Source of the DNA: Nitrospirota bacterium
Lineage (GTDB): Bacteria > Nitrospirota > Thermodesulfovibrionia > Thermodesulfovibrionales > Dissulfurispiraceae
Direction of reading: 5' to 3'
DNA: 36,313 bases
Assembly (NCBI GenBank): GCA_023476565.1
Contig: JAMCVZ010000005.1
Coordinates: forward strand, 1 to 36,313
Shown here: one piece after another, positions 6,933 to 34,649 of the stretch
Layout of the letters: each line of letters begins with the position of its first letter
Numbering within the stretch: the first letter of the stretch is position 1
The notes under the pieces: model-generated
The model's input: the letters and a program-made list of their open reading frames with translations, nothing else
Databases searched by the model: none
Told to the model about the DNA's origin: nothing
Translations under genes and position numbers: made by a program

Positions 6933-8424
6933 AATATTCGATACGACACTGAGAGACGGCGAGCAATCACCCGGCGCATCCATGAATGTGGATGAAAAGA
7001 TACAACTGGCCAAACAACTCGTAAAACTGGGAGTCGATATCATCGAGGCCGGATTCCCTATCGCCTCGCCGGGGGATTTCGAAGCGGTCAAAAGAATAGC
7101 CGGCGAAGTCACCGGCGCCACTGTTGCCGGGCTTGCAAGGGCCAGGGAAGAAGACATCAAAAGGGCATGGGAGGCGATAAAGGATGCGCCGCAAAGGCGG
7201 ATACACACCTTCCACTCCACATCCGATATACATCTTAAATACCAGTTCAGAGTGAGCCGTGAGGAAGCCCTCAAGAGGTCCGTAGAGATGGTAAAGCTCG
7301 CCGGAAGCCTTGTGGAGGACGTGGAGTTTTCTCCCATGGACGCGACAAGAACCGAAATCCCCTATCTCCTTGATGTCGTCGAAGCGGTAGTAGGGGCGGG
7401 GGCCTCAACCGTGAACATCCCGGATACGGTCGGATATACCACCCCCATCGAATTCGGCGCAATGATAAAGGCCGTCAAGGAAAGGATAGGTGATAGAGCG
7501 GTGATCTCCGTACACTGCCATAATGATCTCGGGCTTGCTGTTGCCAATTCCCTTGCCGCTGTCATAAACGGCGCCGGGCAGGTCGAGTGCACCATTAACG
7601 GCATAGGTGAGCGCGCGGGCAATTGCTCGCTTGAGGAAGTTGTAATGAACCTCCATACCCGCAAAGACTTCTATAATGCCGGGACGAACATAAACACAAG
7701 GGAGATCATCCGTGCGAGCAGGCTCGTCACACGGATAACCGGGATACAGGTACAGCCCAACAAGGCCATAGTCGGGGCAAACGCCTTCGCGCATGAATCA
7801 GGCATACACCAGGACGGGCTCCTCAAAGAAAAGATGACCTACGAGATAATCCGCCCTGAAGACATCGGGCTTCAACAGACGGAACTTGTGCTCGGAAAGC
7901 ATTCCGGCAGGCACGCTTTCAAGGCAAGGCTCAAGGAGCTCGGCTATGAACTCAGCCCTGAGGAAATAGAGACGGCGTTTAAAAAATTCAAGCGCCTTGC
8001 AGACCAGAAAAAAGATATCTTCGATGAGGACATAGAAGCGCTGGTTTCCGAGGAGGTGTCGAAGATCCCCGAAGTCTACAGTCTCATGGACCTGTCGATA
8101 TCGAGCGGGATAAGCACCAGGCCGACTGCCGCGCTCAAGCTGAAAGTTAACGGCGCTGCCGTCGACAGGGTGGAGCATGGGGACGGCCCTGTCGATGCGG
8201 TGTACAAGGCTATCTCCGCTGTTACCCGGACGAAGAGCAATCTCCTCAAGTTTGAGGTCAAAGGCATCACCGGCGGGACCGATGCGCTCGGCGAGGTCAT
8301 CGTTACCCTTGAAGAAGACGGCAAGACCGTAAAAGGCAAAGGGGCGGATACCGACATTATCGTTGCCGCAGCAAAGGCATATATAACCGCGCTCAACAAG
8401 CTGGCTGCACGACAGAGGCAGTAA
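6919..8424 (+). CDS. leuA: 2-isopropylmalate synthase
   Basis: A 501-residue enzyme that condenses acetyl-CoA with 2-oxoisovalerate, committing carbon to leucine. The N-terminal TIM barrel begins with DTTLRDGEQSPGA (metal-binding Asp and catalytic Arg), followed by HCHNDLGLA and NGIGERAGN. The C-terminal LeuA dimerisation/allosteric domain, which binds leucine in the family, covers roughly residues 370-500. Length fits LeuA better than the longer homocitrate or citramalate relatives, although substrate choice in this superfamily cannot be fixed by sequence alone. ATG at 6919 overlaps pssA by 14 bases, with AGAGG upstream. The partner leuC lies about 20 kb away in this window. Confidence 0.94.
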   Translation: MRIIKIFDTTLRDGEQSPGASMNVDEKIQLAKQLVKLGVDIIEAGFPIASPGDFEAVKRIAGEVTGATVAGLARAREEDIKRAWEAIKDAPQRRIHTFHSTSDIHLKYQFRVSREEALKRSVEMVKLAGSLVEDVEFSPMDATRTEIPYLLDVVEAVVGAGASTVNIPDTVGYTTPIEFGAMIKAVKERIGDRAVISVHCHNDLGLAVANSLAAVINGAGQVECTINGIGERAGNCSLEEVVMNLHTRKDFYNAGTNINTREIIRASRLVTRITGIQVQPNKAIVGANAFAHESGIHQDGLLKEKMTYEIIRPEDIGLQQTELVLGKHSGRHAFKARLKELGYELSPEEIETAFKKFKRLADQKKDIFDEDIEALVSEEVSKIPEVYSLMDLSISSGISTRPTAALKLKVNGAAVDRVEHGDGPVDAVYKAISAVTRTKSNLLKFEVKGITGGTDALGEVIVTLEEDGKTVKGKGADTDIIVAAAKAYITALNKLAARQRQ

Positions 8425-8453
8425 CCGGATACCAACTGTATTCACGATAAACC

Positions 8454-9050
8454 ATGCCCCGGAAACCAGACCCAGAAAAAACCGTAAAGATACTGCTTGC
8501 CGGGAGCTCCCACACCCGGCTGTTTTATCCCTTTGTGAAAAATTCCCTGAAAGGCGCTGCGCACGTAAGCAAACTCCCTTACGATGCAGGACGCACCGAT
8601 GAAATATTGCAGTCAATAGCTGAATGGCCGCTGGAGGGACAGGATATTATTCATTTCTACGCAGGGCACCGGGATCTCATACTGAATGAGGAGGAACAAC
8701 CGTATATCAAGCCCGGACCATTTGAAAAAAACCTCCGGAAAATCACCGGCATACTCCTCGCCGGGACCTCCGCGATAATCGTCTTTTCAGATATCCCTCC
8801 TGTTTCGGAGAGGCTCCTCACCATCGATGCGGACTGGAACAAGCGCATCCTGCGCTACAACAGGATAATCGAAAAGGTTGCCGGAGATGCGCACATCCCG
8901 GTACACAGTTTCAGGAAGTTTATCCTCGCTTACGAAGGCGTGGAGGATGAGTATGTGGACGACCTCCATTTTACCAGAAGGGTTTACCGCGAGTTCGGGG
9001 AGGAACTGGCGGCCTTTCTGATAAAGCTGCCCTCGCCTGCAAAACCATAG
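8454..9050 (+). CDS. SGNH/GDSL-type hydrolase
   Basis: A 198-residue protein with the SGNH hydrolase layout: block I is AGSSHTR near residues 16-22 (nucleophile Ser19 expected, with GSS replacing GDS), block III is YAGHRDL (Gly with His where Asn is usual), and block V is DDLHF with the catalytic Asp and His near residue 172. No signal peptide is visible, so it probably acts in the cytoplasm. The family includes esterases, lipases and acetylhydrolases; substrate unknown. It starts 29 bases after leuA and may share its transcript. It converges with the sigma-54 regulator gene. Confidence 0.75.
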   Translation: MPRKPDPEKTVKILLAGSSHTRLFYPFVKNSLKGAAHVSKLPYDAGRTDEILQSIAEWPLEGQDIIHFYAGHRDLILNEEEQPYIKPGPFEKNLRKITGILLAGTSAIIVFSDIPPVSERLLTIDADWNKRILRYNRIIEKVAGDAHIPVHSFRKFILAYEGVEDEYVDDLHFTRRVYREFGEELAAFLIKLPSPAKP

Positions 9051-18521: not shown

Positions 18522-20219
18522 TTAAAGGGCCACCACCCGGTCCCTGCCCTCCTCTTTCGCCCGGTAGAGGGCTGTGTCAGCCGCCCGCAAAAGCTCATCT
18601 GCAGTCGTACCGTGTTCCGGAAAGGCGGCAACTCCCATAGAGACGGTGATGGCATCGAGAGATTTGCCGCGATATATTATGGTTGTATGCCCGGCCTCTT
18701 TCCGCAACTGCTCGGCCCGCTGCCGGGTGTTCTCCAGGGATGTCTCGGGCAGTATAATCACGAATTCCTCGCCCCCGTAACGGCAGGCGAAGTCCTCCTC
18801 ACGAATGCCCCTTTGGAGGCAAGCGCCGAGCTCACGGAGAAGCATATCGCCGGCCTCATGGCCGAAGGTATCGTTAAACCTTTTGAAGTGGTCGATATCG
18901 AGCATGATTATCCCGAGAGGATATCCCTTACGCGATATCCGGTGCAGTTCCCTCTCCAGCAATTGCTCCATATGGCGCCTGTTGAACAGGCCTGTAAGAG
19001 AATCATGTATGGACTGGCTGTACAGGATCTCACGCAACCTGAAATTTGCGAGCAGAAGCGCGATACTTTCCGCCACGGTAAGCGCCAGCCGCCGCTTGTT
19101 TTCTATTATGTGCTTCCGCACCTCTTCAGAATAACTGAACCAGTTTGAGTCGAAGAGCAAATGCAGCAGGCCTATGGTCTCATTCTGGGCCATCATCGGC
19201 ACGCAGAGGTAGGCGGCATCCAGCGCATGCTTTATATGGGGGCAGATCACTTCGGGACGGGTGGCATCCACCTGGTGTATCCGTCCGAGCCGCAGAGCCC
19301 AGCACTCATCCGTTCCCATCACCTGCTCCCCGGGCTTGATGTCTCCCCAGGAAACTATGGATTCCAAAGTGTTTTTCGGTTCATTGAGCAGGTACACTGC
19401 GCCCGATTCCTTTGAGAATATATCTTGAACGAATTTGGCGATAACGGTATGGGCTTCTTCAAAGGTGGCACTGGCCTGGAGCAGACTATCCATTTCGCTG
19501 AGCAGTTCAATCTCCCGGTTACGCTGTTCAAGCTCATTCACATAACTTGAAAGGTCTTTATTCGCCTTTTGCAATGCCTCTTCCGCGCGCTTGCGCTCAT
19601 GCATCTCACGGTTGAGCATGTAGAAGATCCCATAAAGTATGGTAAAACTCAGGAGAGTGCCAAGCAATTGTTTCGACATAAGGCCCTTTGCATTCTCCAT
19701 CGTTAGAAAACCGAGATGCGCCAGCGACGCCTCTTCCTCTTTAAACATCCTGTTTATCACATCATTTACGGCATTATGAATCTCCCTCCCCTCGGTAATA
19801 AGCCCGCTCTGTACCACAGCGTTCAATCCGCTTTTCTTCCGCAGTTCGATTGATTCCCGGAAATTGGCAAATCTCTTCCTGATCAAAGGCTCAAGGATAT
19901 CAAGCCTCTGCTGCTGGTCGGGCTTATCTGCAAATAACTTTCCGAGTCCCTCTAATTCCCCATCGACAGTTCTGAGCGCACCGTCGTAATACGGGACGAG
20001 GTAGTCCTCTTCTCCGGTTATAATATAATTGTTCTTATCGATCTCTGCCGAAGCAATCTGAGCTGACAGTGATCCAAGTCTCTCGATGGCGCTGAAGGCA
20101 CGCGATCGAAGCTTGCCGATAGTGGTAAGCTCAGCCATGCTTAAATAGGAAGATACCGTAAATACGGCAAAAATCAACAGCGCAAGCCCGAAACCGATAG
20201 CTGTCACATTCCTTTTCAT
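18522..20219 (-). CDS. CHASE3-GAF-GGDEF diguanylate cyclase
   Basis: A 565-residue membrane sensor enzyme that makes cyclic di-GMP from GTP. A transmembrane helix at residues 7-29, a helical CHASE3-like periplasmic domain (EIDKNNYIITGEEDYL near 58-73), a second membrane helix near 185-200, a coiled coil, a GAF domain (about 240-395) and a GGDEF domain follow. The active site reads YGGEEF, and an inhibitory I-site RxxD (REED) sits exactly 5 residues before it, so product feedback is likely. No EAL domain is present. It is transcribed away from the CBM48/sigma operon; the shared 360-base gap may control both. A role in surface attachment would suit the neighbours but is not shown. Confidence 0.93.
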   Translation of the reverse strand: MKRNVTAIGFGLALLIFAVFTVSSYLSMAELTTIGKLRSRAFSAIERLGSLSAQIASAEIDKNNYIITGEEDYLVPYYDGALRTVDGELEGLGKLFADKPDQQQRLDILEPLIRKRFANFRESIELRKKSGLNAVVQSGLITEGREIHNAVNDVINRMFKEEEASLAHLGFLTMENAKGLMSKQLLGTLLSFTILYGIFYMLNREMHERKRAEEALQKANKDLSSYVNELEQRNREIELLSEMDSLLQASATFEEAHTVIAKFVQDIFSKESGAVYLLNEPKNTLESIVSWGDIKPGEQVMGTDECWALRLGRIHQVDATRPEVICPHIKHALDAAYLCVPMMAQNETIGLLHLLFDSNWFSYSEEVRKHIIENKRRLALTVAESIALLLANFRLREILYSQSIHDSLTGLFNRRHMEQLLERELHRISRKGYPLGIIMLDIDHFKRFNDTFGHEAGDMLLRELGACLQRGIREEDFACRYGGEEFVIILPETSLENTRQRAEQLRKEAGHTTIIYRGKSLDAITVSMGVAAFPEHGTTADELLRAADTALYRAKEEGRDRVVAL

Positions 20220-20579
20220 TAAATCTCCAGTGGTATTGTGGTGAAGGCATGTAATGAATCTGCTTTCCTCGGCGCCTTTTGACAGACCTGCTATTTAAAT
20301 TATAGGGCTAATTTTTTGAAGTTGCACCGGATGGAATCGGTCCGGGCGCATAACCTCCAGGCACGGTATCCGCAACCCCTATGTCCCTTTCAGCCGTGGC
20401 GTGCAAAGACTTCACTTTCGAATAGATTTTCGATGAGGCAATTCGCATCATTGACAGTATTCGCTGCCGGTCATTATGATAGCTGAATCATGCCGGAAGC
20501 AAATACGGTCAAGGAGGGGGTCGCACTATCTTCACGCAGCCTGACCTTAATTCTTATGCAACGATAGGGTAGACCTTTG
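20220..20579. other. Divergent control region without a gene
   Basis: About 360 bases lie between the start of the diguanylate cyclase gene and the start of the lipoprotein gene. I see no RNA gene, no long ORF and no clear sigma-70 or ECF promoter by eye. A 25-codon frame at 20490 resembles nothing. Promoters for both directions are expected here. Confidence 0.4.
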
Positions 20580-20966
20580 ATGCAATCCCAAAAATATTTT
20601 GCCAATACCATAACAAGTCCCCCCGGCAAAGTTTTTTTATGGCTTTTTTTTGCTGTTTTTCTCTCCGGGTGCGCCCTGAAGAACCTGTCGCCCGAGATTG
20701 TCGAAGGCGGCGTAAGGTTTTCCATTAAGGCACCTGACGCAAAAAGGGTCGCCATTGCAGGAAGCTTTAACCGGTGGGACACTGCCAAAGATGCCCTTTC
20801 CGGTCCCGATGGTGACGGCGTATGGAGTATAACCCTGCCTTTAAAAGACGGCCGCTATGAATACCTCTTTCTCATAGACGGAGAAAAATGGCTGCCCGAC
20901 CCCTCTGTCCCGTCCGTGAACGACGAATTCGGCGGAAGAAATTCGGTCATATACATCCGGAGGTAG
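20580..20966 (+). CDS. Lipoprotein with CBM48/AMPK-type glucan-binding domain
   Basis: A 128-residue lipoprotein: a hydrophobic signal at about 17-30 ends in the lipobox LSGC, with Cys31 the lipidated residue. Residues 38-128 are one beta-sandwich like the glycogen-binding domain of AMPK beta and the CBM48 domain of branching enzymes. It has AGSFNRW and DGEKWLPDPS, keeping the two tryptophans that grip alpha-glucan in the AMPK domain. No catalytic domain is present, so it may capture or sense glucan at the envelope. ATG at 20580 is preferred to the TTG at 20577; the ribosome site is weak. It precedes a sigma factor and an anti-sigma factor that carries the same domain. Confidence 0.82.
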   Translation: MQSQKYFANTITSPPGKVFLWLFFAVFLSGCALKNLSPEIVEGGVRFSIKAPDAKRVAIAGSFNRWDTAKDALSGPDGDGVWSITLPLKDGRYEYLFLIDGEKWLPDPSVPSVNDEFGGRNSVIYIRR

Positions 20967-21014: not shown

Positions 21015-21581
21015 ATGAATGGTGATATGCAGGCAATTGAGGAATACTTGGTCATCAAACAATGCATGGACGGCAATGCAGAGGCATATGCCATTCTGGT
21101 CGAGAGGTATAAAGGCATGGTTTACAATATAGCATATAGAATGCTCGGAGATGCCGAGGCGGCAAACGATATAGCCCAGGAGAGCTTTATCTCCGCATAT
21201 GTCGGCTTAAAGGATTTCAAGCGGAGTGCGAAATTCTCCTCGTGGCTCTGCAGCATCGCTATCAACAAATGCAGGGATTATCTGAGAAGCAAAAAGGATA
21301 CCGTTTCAATTGATGAGATAGCAGAGGCGTCTGCCGCCGGGACGGCAACTCCCGAAGATGCAGCATGCAACAGGCAGATGGCGCAGGGAATACAAACAGC
21401 CCTCAATGAATTGCCCGAAGATTACTGCGAGGCAATTGTTCTGAAGCACATCGAGGGGCTGGATTACAAGGAGATGGAGGATATTTTGGGGGTCAGTGCA
21501 AATGTTCTCAAGGTAAGAACCCATAGAGGCAGGGAGATGTTGAAAAAACTCCTGAAGGAAGGGGGGGTTATCGATGAATAA
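21015..21581 (+). CDS. ECF-type RNA polymerase sigma factor
   Basis: A 188-residue alternative sigma factor of the RpoE/ECF group. Region 2 spans about residues 25-90 (ERYKGMVYNIAYRMLGD, ANDIAQESFISAY, FSSWLCSIAINKCRDYLR) and region 4 about 125-182 (ALNELPEDYCEAIVLKH, then the helix-turn-helix with LGVSANVLKVRTHRGREML). It should direct RNA polymerase to the genes of this operon or others when released by the anti-sigma factor encoded next, whose gene overlaps by 8 bases. ATG at 21027 is an alternative start with a somewhat better ribosome site. Target promoters were not identified. Confidence 0.93.
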   Translation: MNGDMQAIEEYLVIKQCMDGNAEAYAILVERYKGMVYNIAYRMLGDAEAANDIAQESFISAYVGLKDFKRSAKFSSWLCSIAINKCRDYLRSKKDTVSIDEIAEASAAGTATPEDAACNRQMAQGIQTALNELPEDYCEAIVLKHIEGLDYKEMEDILGVSANVLKVRTHRGREMLKKLLKEGGVIDE

Positions 21582-22227
21582 AGATATGGACATAATCCAT
21601 AGGCTGCTTGACGGAGAAGTGCCCGAAGAAGAAAAGAGAGAGATTTTGGACAGGATGGATTCCGACCCTGTCCTGAAAAAAGAGTTTAATGAGCTCGAGA
21701 AGGCTCTTTGCATGGTAAAAAACAGCGACAGGTTGGCCGTTCCCGAGTCCTTTACATCGGATGTGATGAGGAGATTGCCGGCATGCAGGGTTTCACCTGT
21801 GAAAAGGATCGGGGATTTTCTTTTCGAAGGCAGGATATTGAAATGGAATATGGCTGCCGCACTGGCAACGGCGTGTTTATTGATAATAGCCTTTGCAGGA
21901 ATTTTCCAGTCCTGGGAAAAACAACACCCGGTCTCATATATCAATGCTTCATCGGAGCCGACCGTTACGGTAAAGATCAACTTTTATGCGCCGGGGGCAA
22001 AGACAGTCTCCGTCGCGGGAAACTTTAACAAGTGGAAGGTTAATGAGAACGCCCTGAGAAAGCAGGACAACGGTGTCTGGACCATAGAGATACCTTTAAA
22101 ACCGGGAATATATAACTATATGTTTGTTGTTGACGGCAAAGTCTGGATGACGGACCCGAATGCCGAATCGTATCGGGACGACGGGTTCGGCTACAGGAAC
22201 GCTGTATTAAAGGTTGCTAAATTGTGA
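21574..22227 (+). CDS. Membrane anti-sigma factor with periplasmic CBM48-like domain
   Basis: A 217-residue single-pass protein. The cytoplasmic N terminus (1-75) has the short helices of anti-sigma domains (HRLLDGEVPEEE, LDRMDSDPVLKKEF), but no HxxxCxxC zinc motif. A membrane helix covers about 91-112. Residues 130-217 form a beta-sandwich like the AMPK/CBM48 glucan-binding domain: AGNFNKWK with Trp154 and DGKVWMTDPNA with Trp191. The simplest reading is that glucan binding outside changes the hold on the sigma factor inside. It overlaps the sigma gene and has a strong GGAAGGGGGGG ribosome site. The CBM48 domain may instead serve structural or cell-wall roles. Confidence 0.85.
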   Translation: MNKDMDIIHRLLDGEVPEEEKREILDRMDSDPVLKKEFNELEKALCMVKNSDRLAVPESFTSDVMRRLPACRVSPVKRIGDFLFEGRILKWNMAAALATACLLIIAFAGIFQSWEKQHPVSYINASSEPTVTVKINFYAPGAKTVSVAGNFNKWKVNENALRKQDNGVWTIEIPLKPGIYNYMFVVDGKVWMTDPNAESYRDDGFGYRNAVLKVAKL

Positions 22228-22238
22228 GGGCAAAGAGA

Positions 22239-23318
22239 ATGAGAAGGATCTTTTTATTCGTGACAATACTCGCTTTATTCGCGATTTGTGGAGCGGCAGG
22301 GGCCGAAACAGGACAGAAGGCCGCCGCTGAGATAAGGTCTTCTATCGAAAAGTCTGCATTTTCACAGGCAGCAAAGGAACTGCTCCTTAAAAAGGCATAT
22401 GATGCGGCGAACGCGGGCATACCGCCAGACGATGTCGCTATTGTTATCGATAGAGGTCTCAGGCAGGGCGCGGACAGCAGGACGATGGAAGGATTTCTTG
22501 ATACAGCCGTAAAAGTAAGAAAACAGAACCTGCCGGTCAGACCTGTCCTGGACAGAATACAGCAGGGCCTGTCAAAGGGTGTGCCTCCCGGGAGGATTCT
22601 TGATGTTACAGAACGGTTAGCGGAAAAACTGAACCGCGCCGGCACTCTTACCGGCAATCTCACGCAAAGCGGTGTAAAAGCGGATAATGACCGGGAAAAG
22701 GAAAATGCCATACAGACTGTTGCCAGGGCGCTGGAAAGGTCGATCCCTGAGAATGCCATTACACAGGCAGGGCTCAGAGTGAAAAAACATAATTACCCCC
22801 TCTCGATATTTGGCGGGGCAGTTGATATGATGACCAATCTCGTGGAAAGCGGCGTGTCAGTTGAGAGGGCGGCACGGCTGGTGAACAAGGCGCTGGATAA
22901 AGGCTATTCTGAAAAGGATATGTCGAGGATGGAGAGGGAAATAGCCGGTGAGCTTAGAGAAGGCAGGAGGATGGAAGACGCGGTAAAAAGGATGGAGTCT
23001 GTAATGGAGCGGGGCAGCTTTGGACAGGGCTACAAAGGCATGGACAGCGGGCAGATGCGTCCGGGTGGTGCAGGCGGCGGCCCGGGTATGGGCGGTTCAG
23101 GCATGGTCGGTCCGGGCGGTGCAGGCATGGTCGGTCCGGGCGGTGCAGGCATGGGCAGTCCGGGTGGTGCAGGCATGGGCGGTCCGGGTGGTGCAGGCAT
23201 GGGCGGTCCGGGTGGTGCAGGCATGGGCGGTCCGGGTGGTGCAGGCGGCGGCCCGGGTGGTGCAGGCGGCGGCCCGGGTGGTGCAGGCGGCGGCCCGGGC
23301 ATGGGCGGCAGGAGATAA
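22239..23318 (+). CDS. Exported repeat protein with Gly/Met-rich tail
   Basis: A 359-residue exported protein of no family I recognise. The start RRIFLFVTILALFAICGAAGA is a signal peptide with probable cleavage after AGA. Residues about 25-265 are helical with a loose repeat of the form G-(I/V)-P-x-x-x-V-x-x-x-(I/V)-x-x-G, for example AGIPPDDVAIVIDRGL and KGVPPGRILDVTERL. The last 90 residues are almost only Gly, Pro, Ala and Met, built of GGPGGAGM units. ATG at 22239 gives a cleaner signal peptide than the GTG at 22224, which overlaps the anti-sigma stop. Two relatives follow. A surface or matrix protein under the sigma factor is a plausible role, by inference. Confidence 0.72.
   Translation: MRRIFLFVTILALFAICGAAGAETGQKAAAEIRSSIEKSAFSQAAKELLLKKAYDAANAGIPPDDVAIVIDRGLRQGADSRTMEGFLDTAVKVRKQNLPVRPVLDRIQQGLSKGVPPGRILDVTERLAEKLNRAGTLTGNLTQSGVKADNDREKENAIQTVARALERSIPENAITQAGLRVKKHNYPLSIFGGAVDMMTNLVESGVSVERAARLVNKALDKGYSEKDMSRMEREIAGELREGRRMEDAVKRMESVMERGSFGQGYKGMDSGQMRPGGAGGGPGMGGSGMVGPGGAGMVGPGGAGMGSPGGAGMGGPGGAGMGGPGGAGMGGPGGAGGGPGGAGGGPGGAGGGPGMGGRR
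23059..23311 (+). repeat. In-frame tandem repeat coding GGPGGAGM units
   Basis: Near-identical 24-base units (GGTCCGGGTGGTGCAGGCAT plus GGGC) repeat through the region, then 18-base units (GGCGGCCCGGGTGGTGCA) finish it. The DNA copies are almost identical, which points to recent slippage or recombination. Copy number should vary among strains. Confidence 0.85.
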
Positions 23319-23334: not shown

Positions 23335-23988
23335 ATGTTCAGAAGCCTCCCATTAACATTAATAGTAGCAGCGGCAAGCCTGCTGGCATTCGGGAGGATT
23401 TCAGATGCGACAACCCTTGATGAGGCCGAAGCACAGGTTGAAAAACAGGCTACGGAAAAGAGGTTAACTGTGAAGGAAAAGACAGAGGCGATTACCGTTT
23501 TGCAGAACCTGGTAGCAAAGGACGTTCCCGTCGGGCATGCTTACAGAGTGGTTGAGGCAGGCATCGATCAGGGGATCAAAAGCAAGGCGCTTGCCGGGAT
23601 AGCAAGGTCGATAGAATCTGTTGAGCCTAAGGCAAGGGGTGATGCAGCGTTTGTAGCTAAATGCACTATAAGCAACAAATACAATATTCGGGATACGGTA
23701 AGTTTAATGGCTATATTTAAGCAGAGTGTGAAGGCAGGAATTCAATCTGAGAGGGTCTCAGAAGTTATGACGAGATCAATAAACAAAGGTCTCAATGGCA
23801 ATAGCATTATGATTATTATGGAGAGGTATGCTGTTCATGTGAAATCAGGGATGTCTTCTGAGAGGGCAATGGAGCGAGCGTCTATTCCTGCGGAGATGAC
23901 CGGAGGGGGAATGGGTAGCAGCTTGGGAATCGGGTATGGTCGGGAATGGATAAAATCTCCGGCCGGGATGGGAGAGAACGGGTCTTGA
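23335..23988 (+). CDS. Exported paralog with short Gly-rich end
   Basis: A 217-residue exported protein closely related to the product of the gene at 24085. The signal peptide (LPLTLIVAAASLLAFG) leads into DEAEAQVEKQATEKRLT, almost the same as its neighbour, then a helical body with the G-(I/V)-P/Q-repeat pattern (KDVPVGHAYRVVEAGIDQGI; AGIQSERVSEVMTRSINKGL). The tail is short (TGGGMGSSLGIGYG) and ends SPAGMGENGS, so the long Gly repeat is missing or lost. ATG at 23335 follows AAGGAG by 9 bases. The frame continues upstream into the previous gene's repeat, which is a shadow. Function unknown; probably arose by tandem duplication. Confidence 0.75.
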   Translation: MFRSLPLTLIVAAASLLAFGRISDATTLDEAEAQVEKQATEKRLTVKEKTEAITVLQNLVAKDVPVGHAYRVVEAGIDQGIKSKALAGIARSIESVEPKARGDAAFVAKCTISNKYNIRDTVSLMAIFKQSVKAGIQSERVSEVMTRSINKGLNGNSIMIIMERYAVHVKSGMSSERAMERASIPAEMTGGGMGSSLGIGYGREWIKSPAGMGENGS

Positions 23989-24084: not shown

Positions 24085-24924
24085 ATGTTAAGGAAAATCT
24101 TATCAGTAACAATAGTGGCAAGCCTGCTGGCATTCGGGGGGATTGCAAATGCGATAACCTTTGATGAGGCCAAGGCACAGGTTGAAAAACAGGCTACGGA
24201 AAAGAGGTTAACTGCAAGGGAAAGGACAGAGGCGGTCACCGTTTTGCAGAACCTGGTGGAAAAGGGCGTTCCCGTGGAGCATGCGTCCAGAGTGGTTGAT
24301 GCCTGCATGGATAAAGGCATAAGGGGCAAGGAGCTTGCCAGTATCGCCCGCTCTATCGAATCGGCTACCCCTGATGCACGGGACGAGGCAGCCACAGTTG
24401 CTGCTGCTGCCGTTGCGCACAACTACAGGACAAGGGACGTGGTAAAGACGGTAGAGGCTGTAAATATCGCGGTAAAGGGCGGGGCGAAACCCGAGACCTC
24501 TGCTAAGGTGGTAACAAGAGGTATAGACAAGGGTCTAAGCGGAAACGCTATCAAAAAAGCGGCTAGAAACTATGGAACCGATATAAAAGAAGGTACACCT
24601 CCTGAAAAGGCAATGGAGCGTGCCACAAGCAATATGGACAGGATAGGTTCAGGAATCGGGCATGGCACAGGCATAGGTAGCGGTTCAGGTATGGGCAGCA
24701 GTTCAGGCACGGGCAGCAGTTCAGGCATAGGCGGCAGTTCAGGCATGGGCGGCGGTTCAGGAATCGGGCATGGCACAGGCATAGGTAGCGGTTCAGGTAT
24801 GGGCAGCAGTTCAGGCACGGGCAGCAGTTCAGGCATGGGCGGCGGTTCAGGCATGGGCGGCGGTTCAGGAATCGGGCATGGCACAGGCATAGGTAGCGGT
24901 TCAGGCATGGGCAGCCGCAGATAA
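24085..24924 (+). CDS. Exported paralog with Gly/Ser-rich tandem-repeat tail
   Basis: A 279-residue exported protein. After a signal peptide (LSVTIVASLLAFGGIANA) come the shared DEAKAQVEKQATEKRLT segment and a helical body with the same repeat pattern (KGVPVEHASRVVDACMDKGI; GGAKPETSAKVVTRGIDKGL). The last 95 residues are Gly, Ser, Met, Thr and Ile in GMGSSSGTGSSSG blocks broken by GIGHGTGIGSGSG. ATG at 24085 has TGGAGGAG just upstream; the 28 codons before it lack a signal peptide. The paralog at 23335 aligns along the body. Low-complexity tails of this kind occur in surface, fibre or matrix proteins of many bacteria; the function here is unknown. Confidence 0.78.
   Translation: MLRKILSVTIVASLLAFGGIANAITFDEAKAQVEKQATEKRLTARERTEAVTVLQNLVEKGVPVEHASRVVDACMDKGIRGKELASIARSIESATPDARDEAATVAAAAVAHNYRTRDVVKTVEAVNIAVKGGAKPETSAKVVTRGIDKGLSGNAIKKAARNYGTDIKEGTPPEKAMERATSNMDRIGSGIGHGTGIGSGSGMGSSSGTGSSSGIGGSSGMGGGSGIGHGTGIGSGSGMGSSSGTGSSSGMGGGSGMGGGSGIGHGTGIGSGSGMGSRR
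24646..24921 (+). repeat. Higher-order in-frame repeat coding a Gly/Ser tail
   Basis: An 18-base unit (GGCAGCAGTTCAGGCAYG-like) is nested in a longer repeat of about 108-111 bases that begins with GGTTCAGGAATCGGGCATGG; full or partial copies start near 24646, 24757 and 24864. The near identity of copies implies recent duplication. Confidence 0.85.
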
Positions 24925-25011: not shown

Positions 25012-25791
25012 ATGCTGTCCGATAAGGTAATGAATTCAGTGATGTGCCTATTCATCGTATTGGTGTCCGGTCTTGTTGTCGCATCAAAGGCATCGGGTGG
25101 AGTAATCCTTGATGCCGGAATCAGGGAAACATATGAGGATAACCTCAACGGCTCTCCGGCGGACGCTGACAAGAAAGGAGATTTTTACACAACAGTATCG
25201 GCTTCTGCAGGCGGATATACAGAGGTCGTCGATGGCACGTACCTCTTTTTACGAGGCGACGCAGCAACCTATCTGTACAGCAAGTACAATGACCTTAATG
25301 CTACGCTTGGCGGCATCAGCGCCGGCGTGTATAAGGAACTGGGTGATGTATTTTCAGCCCAGCTTGCGCTGAAGGGTAAGTTAAAGAACTTTAAGGGAAC
25401 TCTGCGTGACAGCAGCGCCTATGGCGGAACCTTTGAGCTCAAGCAGCAGATTTCGCCTGACTTCTGGATAAAAGAGGGCTATGAATATGAAAAGAACGAT
25501 GCAGACTCCAGGCTCTTCAGTTACAACGGCCACTCGGTCGGCGTATGGTCGGGATACCTGATTACACCGAAGACCATGTTCAACCTCGGCTATAGTTATC
25601 TTACCCGCAAGTATGAGGATGCTTTTGGTTTCAGGACAAAATCCCATACAATCTCAGCGGGCATTGTGAGGGAACTTGTGAAAAAGGTATATGTCAATCT
25701 TGGCTACGACCGGCAATTTAATGATTCCAATGTTGCAAATACAGACTACAAAAATAATATTTACACCCTCGGTGTAACCTATAGTTTTTAA
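25012..25791 (+). CDS. Outer-membrane beta-barrel protein
   Basis: A 259-residue exported protein with alternating hydrophobic strands ending in aromatic residues and a C-terminal YSF, the Phe-ending signal read by the BAM complex. The signal peptide lies at about 8-30. Strand pairs such as GISAGVYKELGDVFSAQLALKG and YVNLGYDRQF are typical of small 10-12 strand barrels related to bacterial outer-membrane beta-barrel families. The ATG follows AAGGAGAG. It sits between Gly-rich exported proteins and could anchor or export them. No substrate can be named. Confidence 0.82.
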   Translation: MLSDKVMNSVMCLFIVLVSGLVVASKASGGVILDAGIRETYEDNLNGSPADADKKGDFYTTVSASAGGYTEVVDGTYLFLRGDAATYLYSKYNDLNATLGGISAGVYKELGDVFSAQLALKGKLKNFKGTLRDSSAYGGTFELKQQISPDFWIKEGYEYEKNDADSRLFSYNGHSVGVWSGYLITPKTMFNLGYSYLTRKYEDAFGFRTKSHTISAGIVRELVKKVYVNLGYDRQFNDSNVANTDYKNNIYTLGVTYSF

Positions 25792-30523: not shown

Positions 30524-30644
30524 GGGTCAGACTTGATTATTGACATTTCACCGCCTCTCTTTTATTACCTCAATCACTTCCTCTATTTCACTTCTCAAGT
30601 CATGCCTCTCTGCCATATTAAATGTCAATAGTCAAGCCTGACCC
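30524..30644. repeat. REPIN-like inverted repeat, GGGTCA(G/A) family
   Basis: GGGTCAGACTTGATTATTGACATTT at 30524-30548 pairs with 30620-30644 as reverse complement, 23 of 25 positions. A direct repeat ATGCAAGCTA lies just left, near 30501. The right arm abuts the GH94 remnant. Confidence 0.7.
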
Positions 30645-31011
30645 TGAACCCTGCCTTCCATATGCTGTCCCGCCGCACACCGGCCGCGGCGGATGGACGT
30701 GGTACACGGGGTCTGCCGGCTGGATGTACCGGCTTATCGTGGAATCGCTCCTGGGGCTGGGGCTTGAAAAAGACAAACTGCGTTTCGAGCCGTGCCTCCC
30801 TGCGGATTGGGAAACGTTCAAGGTGCATTACCGATACCGGGAAACTCTCTATCATATCACCGTCCGGCAAACGCCCGCCGCCAATAATAAGATGATCGGC
30901 GAGATGAGCGTGACCGTCGATGGCGTTGAGCAACACGACAAGGCTATTCCCCTTGTTGATGACCGTCAGGAACACTCGGTCGAGGTGAGGATGCCTGTTG
31001 CAGAGGGATGA
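30645..31011 (+). pseudogene. C-terminal remnant of a GH94 glycan phosphorylase/glucan synthase
   Basis: The frame carries the end of a glycoside hydrolase family 94 protein (cellobiose phosphorylase or cyclic beta-1,2-glucan synthase): VPPHTGRGGWTWYTGSAGWMYR, a hallmark near the catalytic barrel's end, then FEPCLPADWETFKVHYRYR and a short sandwich tail ending at the stop at 31009-31011. Complete members have from about 800 to over 2800 residues; here about 115 remain. Similarity begins some 15 bases after the REP right arm, which marks the break. No start or ribosome site fits, so it is probably dead. Confidence 0.72.
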
Positions 31012-31167: not shown

Positions 31168-32577
31168 TCAGAAATCCAGCGGACTTTTCGCCTCTTTCAC
31201 TGTTCTGCCCGGAATGCAGTGGGTATAGATCATCGTTGTCCTGACATCACTATGGCCCAGCAGTGTTTGGATCGTACGGATGTCATAGTTGGCCTGTAGA
31301 AGGTGGGTGGCAAAAGAATGGCGGAAGGTATGCGCTGTGACGCGTTTTGTGAGTCTTGCACGCCCGACGGCCTCGTACAGCGCTTCCTGTACACGGCTCT
31401 CATGTAAGTGATAACGCCGCAGTTCATTTTTTGCCGGGACCGGAGTCAGCGCTTGTTGAGGGAAAAACCATTGCCAGATGAAATCTCTTGCAGCCCTCGG
31501 ATATTTCTTTTCGAGCAAATCATCGAGAAAAGCGCCTGAGTAACCTGCCTTGAGGTCTGCGTCATGCAACTTTCTTACGGTCTCAAGCTGTTCCAGCAGG
31601 TCAGGGGTTATTGTCTGGGGGATGGGCACAGTCCTTGACTTCTTTCCCTTTCCGTCCTGTATGTTCAGCATGCCGTCCTCGAAATTGAAATTCTGCACCC
31701 GCAGCTTGATGCACTCAAAAAGCCGCAGACCGCAGCCGTACAGCAATTTGACTACAAGATCATATGGATATGAAAGATGTTTCAATACGGCGTCGATTTC
31801 CCGCCTCGAAAGGACAACGGGGATATATTTCGATTTCTTCGCGCGGGGAATGTCTTTATGGTCGCCGAAATCCTTCTTGAGAATATGCCGGTACAGAAAC
31901 AATAAAGCGTTAAAAGCCTGGTTCTGCGTTGATGCGGAGACCTTGCAGTTCACTGCCAGATATGTGAGATACTCCTTCACATCGGTTTCCGACAACTCCC
32001 CCGGCAGCTTATCATGCAGGAAGCCCTGAAACTTGCGTATCCAGTCCCCATAGGCCTTTAATGTTTTTCTGGAATAGTGGCGGGTCTTGATCTCGTCGGA
32101 CAAATCGGAGACGACCTTGTCCCATGCCGGAGAACCGGAGTTCTCAAGGCATCGCCATTCATTATAACGGCTTTCATTGCGGAAGTGTGTTGCCGGCTCC
32201 GATACTTGCAGGGGCGCATCCAATGTATTTATCCGTTCCTGAACAGCAACGGCATATTTCCCCTTAATAGAGGGGGTGGCAGGAGTTGTTGTGAAAGACC
32301 TTGTCTCTGAATCCTGCATCTGAAAATAAAGCGAAACGGCATAGGCAGCCTGTTTTTGCTGCTCCTGCGATTGTTTTTTCTCCTTAAGCTTTTCGATAAA
32401 CAAACGTATCTGCTCGGACCTGGAATCCGGCGGATGGTATTTGGCAAGAAAGTCCCAAAAGTATAGAAACCACTTTTTAAGGTTTTCATGCTGCGAAACA
32501 TCCTTCACTTTAGCCTTAAGGAAGGCATCGTAACGGGACCAAATATCATATGGAACTTTTTGCATGGTATTAGTCAT
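31168..32577 (-). CDS. intI: IntI-type integron integrase with extra N-terminal domain
   Basis: A 469-residue tyrosine recombinase. The catalytic set is visible: Arg in GCGLRLFECIKLRV, HTFRH (His and Arg), the LLGH histidine and the MIYTH tyrosine. Between the boxes lies the IntI-specific patch: ARDFIWQWFFPQ ... RRYHLHES, absent from XerC/D and phage integrases, so it should recombine folded single-stranded attC sites with attI. Usual IntI proteins are 320-340 residues; here residues 1-135 add what looks like a second SAM-like core-binding domain before the normal one at about 150-245. It points away from the attC sites, the standard integron layout. The start may be 32577 or 32565. Confidence 0.92.
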   Translation of the reverse strand: MTNTMQKVPYDIWSRYDAFLKAKVKDVSQHENLKKWFLYFWDFLAKYHPPDSRSEQIRLFIEKLKEKKQSQEQQKQAAYAVSLYFQMQDSETRSFTTTPATPSIKGKYAVAVQERINTLDAPLQVSEPATHFRNESRYNEWRCLENSGSPAWDKVVSDLSDEIKTRHYSRKTLKAYGDWIRKFQGFLHDKLPGELSETDVKEYLTYLAVNCKVSASTQNQAFNALLFLYRHILKKDFGDHKDIPRAKKSKYIPVVLSRREIDAVLKHLSYPYDLVVKLLYGCGLRLFECIKLRVQNFNFEDGMLNIQDGKGKKSRTVPIPQTITPDLLEQLETVRKLHDADLKAGYSGAFLDDLLEKKYPRAARDFIWQWFFPQQALTPVPAKNELRRYHLHESRVQEALYEAVGRARLTKRVTAHTFRHSFATHLLQANYDIRTIQTLLGHSDVRTTMIYTHCIPGRTVKEAKSPLDF

Positions 32578-32639: not shown

Positions 32640-33147
32640 CCACGGGCAAGCCCGTGGCACTTTATAATTCAAGCTTCGCTTGTCCTAAATCCTGGCTCTC
32701 TTGCCATCTGACGTATTTAATTATTTGCTGCTCGTTCAATCCAATCGTTGATACAAAATATCCTGGCGACCATACTATGTTCTCATGCCAGTATACCTTT
32801 TTAAGCCATATGAACTTTTCCCTCAGTTTACTGGCGCTTTGGCCCTTGATTCTCCCTATCACTTCACTCACTGAATATTTCGGCGGTATTATCATAATCG
32901 TATGTATGTGATCTATCTGAATGTTCTGCTCTATAATTTCCACTCCAGGCATCATAGCCAGTATCTCTGGATAAACTTTTCCCAGATATCCTTGTACGCC
33001 AGGATTTAGGATTCGCCTCCGATATTTTGGTATCCAGACTACATGGTATTCAGTTCTATATACGCTGTGCCCTGATAACCTGTTTTCCACGATTATCTGT
33101 ATACCAAAATCTCTCCGGGCAGCATTCACCCACGGGCAAGCCCGTGG
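32640..33147 (-). mobile_element. IS200-like element with terminal hairpins
   Basis: Identical 18-base palindromes CCACGGGCAAGCCCGTGG lie at 32640-32657 and 33130-33147 and enclose a single HUH transposase gene. Subterminal hairpins and no terminal inverted repeats are the rule for the IS200/IS605 family, which moves as single-stranded DNA. No tnpB is present. Exact ends lie a little outside the hairpins. It splits the integrase from the cassettes. Confidence 0.85.
32662..33090 (-). CDS. tnpA: IS200-like HUH transposase TnpA
   Basis: A 142-residue Y1 transposase. The HUH histidine pair is in QIDHIHTIMIIPP, and the nucleophilic tyrosine in KYVRWQESQD near the C terminus. The start GHSVYRTEYHVVWIPKYRRR is typical of the family. 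GTG at 33090 gives the usual length; the frame is open to a GTG at 33129 beside the right hairpin. The protein appears intact. Confidence 0.9.
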   Translation of the reverse strand: MENRLSGHSVYRTEYHVVWIPKYRRRILNPGVQGYLGKVYPEILAMMPGVEIIEQNIQIDHIHTIMIIPPKYSVSEVIGRIKGQSASKLREKFIWLKKVYWHENIVWSPGYFVSTIGLNEQQIIKYVRWQESQDLGQAKLEL

Positions 33148-33407: not shown

Positions 33408-34649
33408 ATGCTTGTTTTTTTGAGTTGGTCAGGCAACAAGAGTAGAGCAGTGGCTGAAACCCTGAAGCAGTGGCTCGTTCAAGTAATTCAGGCAGTTGAT
33501 CCGTGGATATCCTGTGATATCGCGAAGGGATCTCGTTGGAATTCTGAGGTGTCTGCAAAACTTGAGGCATCAAAGTTTGCCATTATCTGCCTTACCCGAG
33601 AAAATTTAGATGCGAGATGGATTCTATTTGAAGCGGGTGCGATTTCCAAACTCAATGATGCCTCAGTTTGTACTCTTCTGCTTGATATTACACCTGCTGA
33701 GGTAGAACAACCGCTAAGCCAATTTCAACATACTACAATTGAAAAGAGTGATTTCCGTAAACTTGTGCATACGATGAATGATGCTCTATCACGTGCAGGT
33801 GAGCGAGGACTCCCATCACAAACCCTGGATAGCATTTTTGAGACCTTCTGGCCACAGTTGCAAAATGAATTAGTTGAGATTAGTGAAACTCAGTACGCAG
33901 AAGAACACAAAATGCGTAGTGACCGCGCAATTCTTGAAGAAATCGTTGAAATACTTAGGAATCAAGAGCGACAGCAAAGTGGGAAAACAGGAGAAGTCCA
34001 CATCCGTTCACTTGACAATACTCAGACTTTCCCCGGCAGAGATGTTATTAAAGCATGGCTTGCACGAGGATTACACTCTTTCGAGTCAACATTATTTGGA
34101 GGGATTCTTAGATACAAGAAGTTCGATATGGAGAAAAAAACTTATGTGTTTGATAAATCGATTGCGGTACGGAATAGAGAAGGTATTTGGGTCGTAAAGG
34201 TCCGAAATTCGCAGATAGCTATTATCGACAATACAGGCAATACTTTAGATGCACGCACAGTTAATTACGGAGATAGGATTATGCTGCCCGACGGTAGTAC
34301 TGTAGAACCCGACCAAAAACTTGTGGAAAGGGACCCTCTCTCAATGCCAATCATAACAGAGGTGGCCGGAAAGGTCGCCTTTGGTGATATGATAGAAAAT
34401 ATGAGTTTTATACAAGAGACAGATACAGCTACAGGGCGTATATTTAAAATTATGATTGACTGGCCAAGCAATCTCAGGCCGCGTATCGCAATAAAAGACA
34501 AGAAAGGCCGAAGTGTTAAAATACCGGGGACAAACCATCTTGCCCGATATCTTCTACCTGCTGGAGCTATTATTTTAGTTGATAAAGGAGATGATGTGGT
34601 CCCGGGCGATGTGCTTGCAAGGATTCCGCTTGAGATCACTGAGGCTTAA
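33408..34649 (+). CDS. TIR-domain protein fused to an RNA polymerase beta-prime SI3-like domain
   Basis: A 413-residue soluble protein carried as an integron cassette. Residues 1-150 are a TIR domain of the bacterial TIR_2 type: VFLSWSGNKS, the DPWIS loop, FAIICLTRENL, and WILFEAGA with Glu75 at the NADase catalytic position. Residues 160-195 are a charged helical linker and 196-243 are unassigned. From about 244 to 413 the sequence reads as the SI3 insertion of the RNA polymerase beta-prime trigger loop: VRNREG, RDPLSMPIITEVAGKVAFGDM, ETDTATGR, LRPRIAIKDKKG, IPGTNHLARYLLPAGA, GDVLARIP. The trigger-loop sequences on either side (such as TKDITGGLPRV) are missing. AGAGG lies 7 bases before the ATG; the stop falls in the attC at 34644. 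Base composition is richer in A+T than upstream genes. Likely a defence effector. Confidence 0.85.
   Translation: MLVFLSWSGNKSRAVAETLKQWLVQVIQAVDPWISCDIAKGSRWNSEVSAKLEASKFAIICLTRENLDARWILFEAGAISKLNDASVCTLLLDITPAEVEQPLSQFQHTTIEKSDFRKLVHTMNDALSRAGERGLPSQTLDSIFETFWPQLQNELVEISETQYAEEHKMRSDRAILEEIVEILRNQERQQSGKTGEVHIRSLDNTQTFPGRDVIKAWLARGLHSFESTLFGGILRYKKFDMEKKTYVFDKSIAVRNREGIWVVKVRNSQIAIIDNTGNTLDARTVNYGDRIMLPDGSTVEPDQKLVERDPLSMPIITEVAGKVAFGDMIENMSFIQETDTATGRIFKIMIDWPSNLRPRIAIKDKKGRSVKIPGTNHLARYLLPAGAIILVDKGDDVVPGDVLARIPLEITEA

Follow-up and report, generated by a model that had tools for sequence, protein, structure and literature searches.

Organization of the locus

The window, which is the entire 36,313-nucleotide stretch of Nitrospirota DNA analysed here, carries on its forward strand an operon that encodes an ECF sigma factor, a membrane anti-sigma factor with a CBM48 domain, a free CBM48 lipoprotein, and several secreted and outer-membrane proteins. 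The first gene (20577-20966; TTG start, with an ATG at 20580) encodes a lipoprotein with an LSGC lipobox and a free CBM48 domain (AMPK1_CBM, E = 9.4e-12; CBM_48, E = 9.5e-10), which is 46% identical to the CBM of the anti-sigma factor. The ECF sigma factor is encoded at 21015-21581, contains the regions Sigma70_r2 (E = 4.6e-20) and Sigma70_r4_2 (E = 2e-12), scores best against SigW models and is presumed to be the cognate sigma factor of the protein encoded next to it. The end of its open reading frame (ORF) overlaps by 8 bp with the start of the anti-sigma ORF (21574-22227; ATG start, 217 amino acids), whose stop is in turn overlapped by the GTG start of repA (22224-23318), a conserved operon member that encodes a secreted α-helical repeat protein with a Gly-rich tail. 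Two further secreted proteins, both related to RepA, are encoded at 23335-23988 (taken to start at Met 106 of the ORF as listed) and at 24085-24924 (repC; start inferred); the former is related to RepC, which is itself a repeat protein with a Ser/Gly-rich tail. An outer-membrane β-barrel protein of the BBP2_2 type is encoded at 25012-25791 (PF10082, E = 2.3e-8, with weak TIGR03016 and EpsL matches).

The repA gene lies downstream of the sigma/anti-sigma pair in both lineages that we compared. A model of RepA (pLDDT 89) is entirely helical, with 12 helices, and a fold search returned no natural relative: the best Foldseek E value was 5e-3, the matches being mostly designed helical repeats, and the best VIA Z score was 10.1, at a root-mean-square deviation (rmsd) of 6.5. 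The operon contains no glucan enzyme, and a GT2 glycosyltransferase gene was seen next door in just one relative (L144).

Elsewhere in the window, a CHASE3-GAF-GGDEF diguanylate cyclase is encoded on the reverse strand at 18522-20219, divergent from the operon. A short ORF at 30622-31011 resembles only the C-terminal end of GH94/GH65 phosphorylases and is an apparent remnant; next to it are encoded an integrase (31168-32577) and a transposase of the IS200 type (32662-33129). Adjoining these two genes, a 413-residue protein with an N-terminal TIR domain (33408-34649) is possibly defence-related.

Domain architecture of the anti-sigma factor

The protein encoded at 21574-22227 comprises a cytoplasmic anti-sigma domain (residues 1-85; 21574-21828), a transmembrane helix (residues 92-114; 21847-21915) and a periplasmic CBM48/AMPK-type domain (residues 129-217; 21958-22224), the last assigned from Pfam matches, a structural model and alignment with AMPK. 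The cytoplasmic domain is RsiW-like. As a single-sequence query, residues 6-70 matched RsiW (5wuq) with an E value of 1.4e-6, and a 21-row family profile matched it over profile positions 6-74 with an E value of 1e-11; together with the overlap between the two genes, this bears out the original prediction of an anti-sigma factor. The transmembrane helix coincides with a Kyte-Doolittle maximum of 2.44 at residues 93-111 and with a model helix at residues 89-117. Only about 15 residues separate it from the CBM, the position at which RsgI factors have an autocleaving periplasmic domain, and this stretch has no Pfam match.

The motif check found no Hx3Cx2C zinc motif in the cytoplasmic domain of any of the 31 aligned Nitrospirota anti-sigma-CBM48 proteins, the present one included. 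The absence reported in the original prediction thus holds throughout the family, but the motif cannot be called usual: among membrane-bound anti-sigma factors of class I, about 48% carry it and about 52% do not (PMC7406223). The missing motif therefore carries little weight. That such zinc-less domains are common had been overlooked, as had the adjoining gene for the free CBM48 lipoprotein.

Full-length relatives with the same architecture number 60, in 59 of 395 sampled Nitrospirota genomes, which argues that the fusion did not arise by chance, and an ECF sigma gene adjoins the anti-sigma-CBM48 gene in all 20 relatives retrieved. The assignment of the protein, from its sequence, as a class I anti-sigma factor (ASDI) fused to a CBM48 domain is thus well supported.

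Fold and ligand positions of the CBM48 domain

The outer domain passed the cut-offs of both relevant Pfam families, scoring 49.9 bits against AMPK1_CBM (E = 3.6e-13; cut-off 26.8) and 46.5 bits against CBM_48 (E = 4.7e-12; cut-off 22.4). In an AlphaFold2 model built with the family alignment, the CBM has a pLDDT near 92; the overall pTM is low (0.41), as expected because the domains are flexibly linked. Superposed on the glycogen-binding domain of AMPK β1 (1z0m_B), the predicted CBM gave a Z score of 14.0 and an rmsd of 1.4 Å with 81 of 81 residues aligned. The possibility, raised with the original prediction, of a fold unlike CBM48 was checked on this model, which turned out to be of the AMPK type. 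The predicted CBM48/AMPK fold of the outer domain is therefore well supported.

Ligand contacts in AMPK include stacking on glucose by Trp100 and Trp133, hydrogen bonds from Asn150 and Lys126, and hydrophobic contacts by Leu146 and Thr148 (PMC9788615). The alignment places W154, W191, N209, M183, F205 and Y207 of the anti-sigma CBM at the positions of AMPK W100, W133, N150, K126, L146 and T148, respectively, so that the two tryptophans originally proposed to grip glucan correspond to those that stack on sugar in AMPK. We counted the residues at these positions in 31 anti-sigma CBMs drawn from two lineages and in 28 free CBMs. Both tryptophans are present in all 31 anti-sigma CBMs, and among the free CBMs the equivalents of W100 and W133 are Trp in 28 and 27 of the 28, respectively. 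Across the anti-sigma CBMs, the equivalent of N150 is Asn in 30 of 31 and that of L146 is Phe or Leu; the K126 equivalent is Met or Ser, and the position of T148 is variable.

Two groups of CBM48 domains served as controls. A CBM48 family in Elusimicrobia retains FNxW and lacks the second Trp throughout, and that residue is therefore not a requirement of the fold. These Elusimicrobia proteins (L068, L070, L071, L073 and most loci up to L102) are short, about 154 residues, and membrane-bound or secreted, with DGQDVLDP in place of DGxxWxxDP. In the alignment with the anti-sigma CBM, the feruloyl-esterase (CE1-linked) CBM48 of 6rzn lacks both tryptophans; CE1-linked CBM48 domains have no affinity for the glycans tested and clasp each other in a crystal dimer (PMC8040265). 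Set against these Trp-lacking controls, the anti-sigma CBMs look like the binding type, and sugar binding by them is plausible from their sequences. The CBM tree did not separate a single from a double origin of the anti-sigma CBM.

Conserved linkage and distribution

A free CBM48 gene lies within 3 kb and on the same strand for 53 of the 60 full-length anti-sigma genes, and several of the remaining seven sit at contig ends. This proximity argues that the free CBM48 lipoprotein belongs to the system, and the protein encoded at 20577-20966 is likely to be a partner or co-sensor of the anti-sigma factor. The free CBM48 gene is upstream in 18 of the 53 cases (none in family f29, which may be Nitrospiraceae) and downstream in 35 (every one of them in f29), so that the linkage has been kept through rearrangement. 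The recurring Nitrospirota set thus consists of a free CBM48 protein, an ECF sigma factor, an anti-sigma-CBM48 protein and a secreted helical-repeat protein, usually next to a gene for an outer-membrane barrel. The barrel is of the BBP2 type and is encoded downstream in most loci of the window's lineage; at one locus of family f29, a different outer-membrane barrel precedes the sigma gene.

Outside Nitrospirota, there was at least one match among those listed, in Fibrobacterota (L042, 315-965). This protein combines a zinc-type anti-sigma domain (HIEACEHC), a transmembrane segment and a CBM48 domain. Its gene sits at the end of a contig, the 314 bp that precede it show no sigma gene, and the secreted protein encoded after it has no detectable relation to RepA.

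The CBM48/AMPK1_CBM domain also occurs at the C terminus of ParA/Soj-type ATPases in Planctomycetota and Omnitrophota (L043, L044 (498-1595), L046, L055 (4711-6261), L061, L063, L064, L066, L074 (4152-5276), L078, L080, L085 and L094), the fusion being confirmed with Pfam for L044, L055 and L074. These are possibly ATPases for the positioning or partitioning of glycogen granules.

Promoter-like elements

A sigma-70-type promoter-like site (TTGACA-18 nt-TATGAT; 20451-20480, forward strand) precedes the free CBM48 gene by about 100 bp and matches 11 of 12 consensus positions; since a consensus scan of the region found 3 such sites against 2.9 expected, it is weak evidence. In family f29, bipartite-word counting at seven loci identified an ECF-type motif, TTTAC-N16/17-CGTC, upstream of sigma in 6 of 7 genomes against 0.07 expected (shuffled sequences gave at most 3 for any word), although these genomes are related and do not represent independent cases. 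Neither the window nor the upstream regions of its lineage contain this motif. A longer form, TTTACYTTT...CGTC, has 14 matches in ten genomes, as compared with 7 for the reversed control, and 8 of these are no more than about 6 kb away from the operon, where they precede a small conserved lipoprotein and an Asp/Arg/Gln-repeat secreted protein. This placement hints at a regulon of surface proteins that is local and subject to autoregulation.

The small lipoprotein, of about 145 residues, is encoded at L150 (3079-3519), L151 (from about 1034) and L155 (1723-2145), and is followed by a DUF5666 protein in L151 and L155. The repeat protein, with DRRADRQ repeats, is encoded at L150 on the reverse strand (8230-8622). 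Each of the two lies behind a TTTACYTTT...CGTC promoter-like site. In the window's lineage, 11-bp direct repeats of TTCAYA precede four to six free-CBM genes against 0.2 expected; as the pattern had been chosen from the same sequences, this excess does not amount to a fair test. At L031, L032, L040 and L145, these repeats take the form TTCAYA-N5-TTCAY at -29 to -39 of the free CBM48 gene, near -10-like sequences, and resemble OmpR/PhoB-type operators, a likeness noticed after the fact.

Sigma factors and proteases in the genome

The genome, which is 96% complete, encodes four Sigma70_r2 proteins, among which only that of 21015-21581 is of ECF size, and a search of the same assembly with this sequence found no second ECF sigma factor. 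Its candidates for regulated proteolysis include an RseP-type site-2 protease (M50 with a PDZ domain; G000:C34:14258-15253) and several HtrA-like ORFs with two PDZ domains; the site-1 protease PrsW (PF13367) had no match in this genome at E values up to 1e-3. CBM48 occurs elsewhere in the genome in a 753-residue ORF on contig C8, which is probably a branching enzyme.

Comparison with known regulatory systems

The RsgI anti-sigma-I factors of cellulolytic clostridia carry CBM3, CBM42, PA14 or GH10 sensors (PMC12203970). Like the protein described here, RsgI is an anti-sigma factor that crosses the membrane once and carries an outer, carbohydrate-related domain at its C terminus. However, its partner is SigI, whereas here an ECF sigma factor scores best against SigW models; it uses CBM3 or CBM42 rather than CBM48, and it serves plant polysaccharide breakdown, whereas the present genes form an envelope set. 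As originally proposed, the protein is built differently from RsgI: the RsgI Pfam domain has no match in it at E values up to 1, its partner is an ECF sigma factor and its CBM is different, so that the likeness is one of outline and not of membership. RsiW of Bacillus subtilis, known from the SigW-RsiW complex (5wuq), has a homologous anti-sigma domain and a corresponding partner, but in the present system the zinc motif is absent, a CBM48 domain has been added and PrsW was not found in the genome. The AMPK β glycogen-binding domain (1z0m, 1z0n, 4yee) shares the fold, both tryptophans, the Asn150 equivalent and a hydrophobic residue at Leu146, whereas the domain described here is on the periplasmic side, has Met at K126 and a variable T148, and contains one extra residue in the loop before the second Trp. 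RseA and RseB of Escherichia coli, an anti-sigma factor with a periplasmic binding protein, may offer a parallel, for which we claim no homology; the companion here is a CBM48 lipoprotein. Our search of the open-access literature, which covered sources other than the main ECF classification paper, found no report of a CBM48 anti-sigma factor.

Proposed mechanism and alternative explanations

Most likely, the protein is the predicted inhibitor of a one-ECF envelope circuit and would be gated by glycan through its CBM48 domain. More specifically, we propose, at about even confidence, that it is the single-pass anti-sigma factor of the adjacent sigma factor, senses glycan through CBM48 and is removed by proteolysis; the binding of sigma and of glycan, the identity of the ligand, the sign of the response and release by proteolysis are steps that we infer. 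The RsiW-like cytoplasmic domain would hold the ECF sigma factor encoded just upstream at the membrane, and the periplasmic CBM48 domain would sense a glycan by stacking of sugar on Trp154 and Trp191. The ligand may be a periplasmic or surface glycan, most simply an α-glucan-like polymer that belongs to the envelope or matrix of the cell itself, and the free CBM48 lipoprotein could act as a co-sensor, compete for the same ligand or contact the anti-sigma CBM directly. When ligand occupancy changed, the anti-sigma factor would become accessible first to a periplasmic protease and afterwards to a site-2 protease of the RseP type, and the freed sigma factor would raise expression of the operon, with its secreted repeat proteins and outer-membrane barrel. 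The overlapping genes, the RsiW homology, the CBM48 matches, the AMPK fold, the conserved tryptophans, the linkage of the free CBM48 gene, the ECF-type promoter in f29 and the RseP-like and HtrA-like proteases all favour this reading. Against it stand the change of K126 to Met and the variable T148, the CBM48 domains that bind no tested glycan (PMC8040265), the operon without a glucan enzyme, the failure to find PrsW, and the absence of the ECF-type motif in the window's lineage.

The main rival, which we consider a serious possibility although short of probable, is that the CBM48 domain is a protein-docking module for the free CBM48 lipoprotein, the repeat protein or an outer-membrane protein, so that envelope or lipoprotein-export stress would be sensed instead of sugar, by analogy with the binding of RseA by RseB. 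The constant linkage of the two CBM48 proteins, the outer-membrane barrel and secreted proteins that adjoin them, and the loss of AMPK K126 and T148 are consistent with docking, as are the CE1-linked domains, which clasp each other and have no glycan affinity (PMC8040265). However, the sugar-stacking Trp pair is invariant in the anti-sigma CBMs and is accompanied by the N150 and L146-like positions, the free CBMs keep these residues too, and other CBM48 families lose W133 yet keep the fold. CBMs commonly act as anchors, and we regard it as improbable, but worth weighing, that this CBM48 domain does nothing else, tethering the anti-sigma factor and the lipoprotein to a matrix or envelope polysaccharide with a mechanical or proteolytic signal that has no ligand specificity; the secreted Gly-rich repeat proteins and the lipoprotein encoded in the operon would suit such a role, although anchoring predicts the same sequence picture as sensing. 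Very unlikely, in our judgement, is a relic that has kept its fold while the anti-sigma factor responds otherwise, for example through its transmembrane segment. CBM48 domains without a known ligand do exist (PMC8040265), but here the tryptophans at the ligand positions are strongly conserved over proteins that are about 45% identical and come from two lineages.

Possible implications for envelope regulation in Nitrospirota

The free CBM48 lipoprotein as a part of the system, the recurrent Nitrospirota gene set, the lone ECF sigma factor and the ECF-type promoter in family f29 are new here. If the CBM binds sugar, the glycan-sensing reading would mean that anti-sigma factors able to read carbohydrate arose independently a second time and, judging from the open-access literature, that this is the first for an ECF sigma factor with CBM48. 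The conserved second CBM48 protein, the lipoprotein, makes the glycan-sensing idea directly testable. We suggest tentatively, as a possibility that we hold to be somewhat unlikely in its full form, that the membrane anti-sigma factor and the lipoprotein form a two-CBM48 device by which a Nitrospirota ECF sigma factor responds to a glucan-like envelope polymer, matching outer-membrane and matrix proteins to polysaccharide status, as an ECF checkpoint gated by carbohydrate, with an origin separate from that of RsgI. Nitrospirota include nitrite oxidizers and many uncultured subsurface lineages. As the sole ECF switch found in its genome, and one that recurs across the phylum, this system could account for the way in which such bacteria monitor their envelope.
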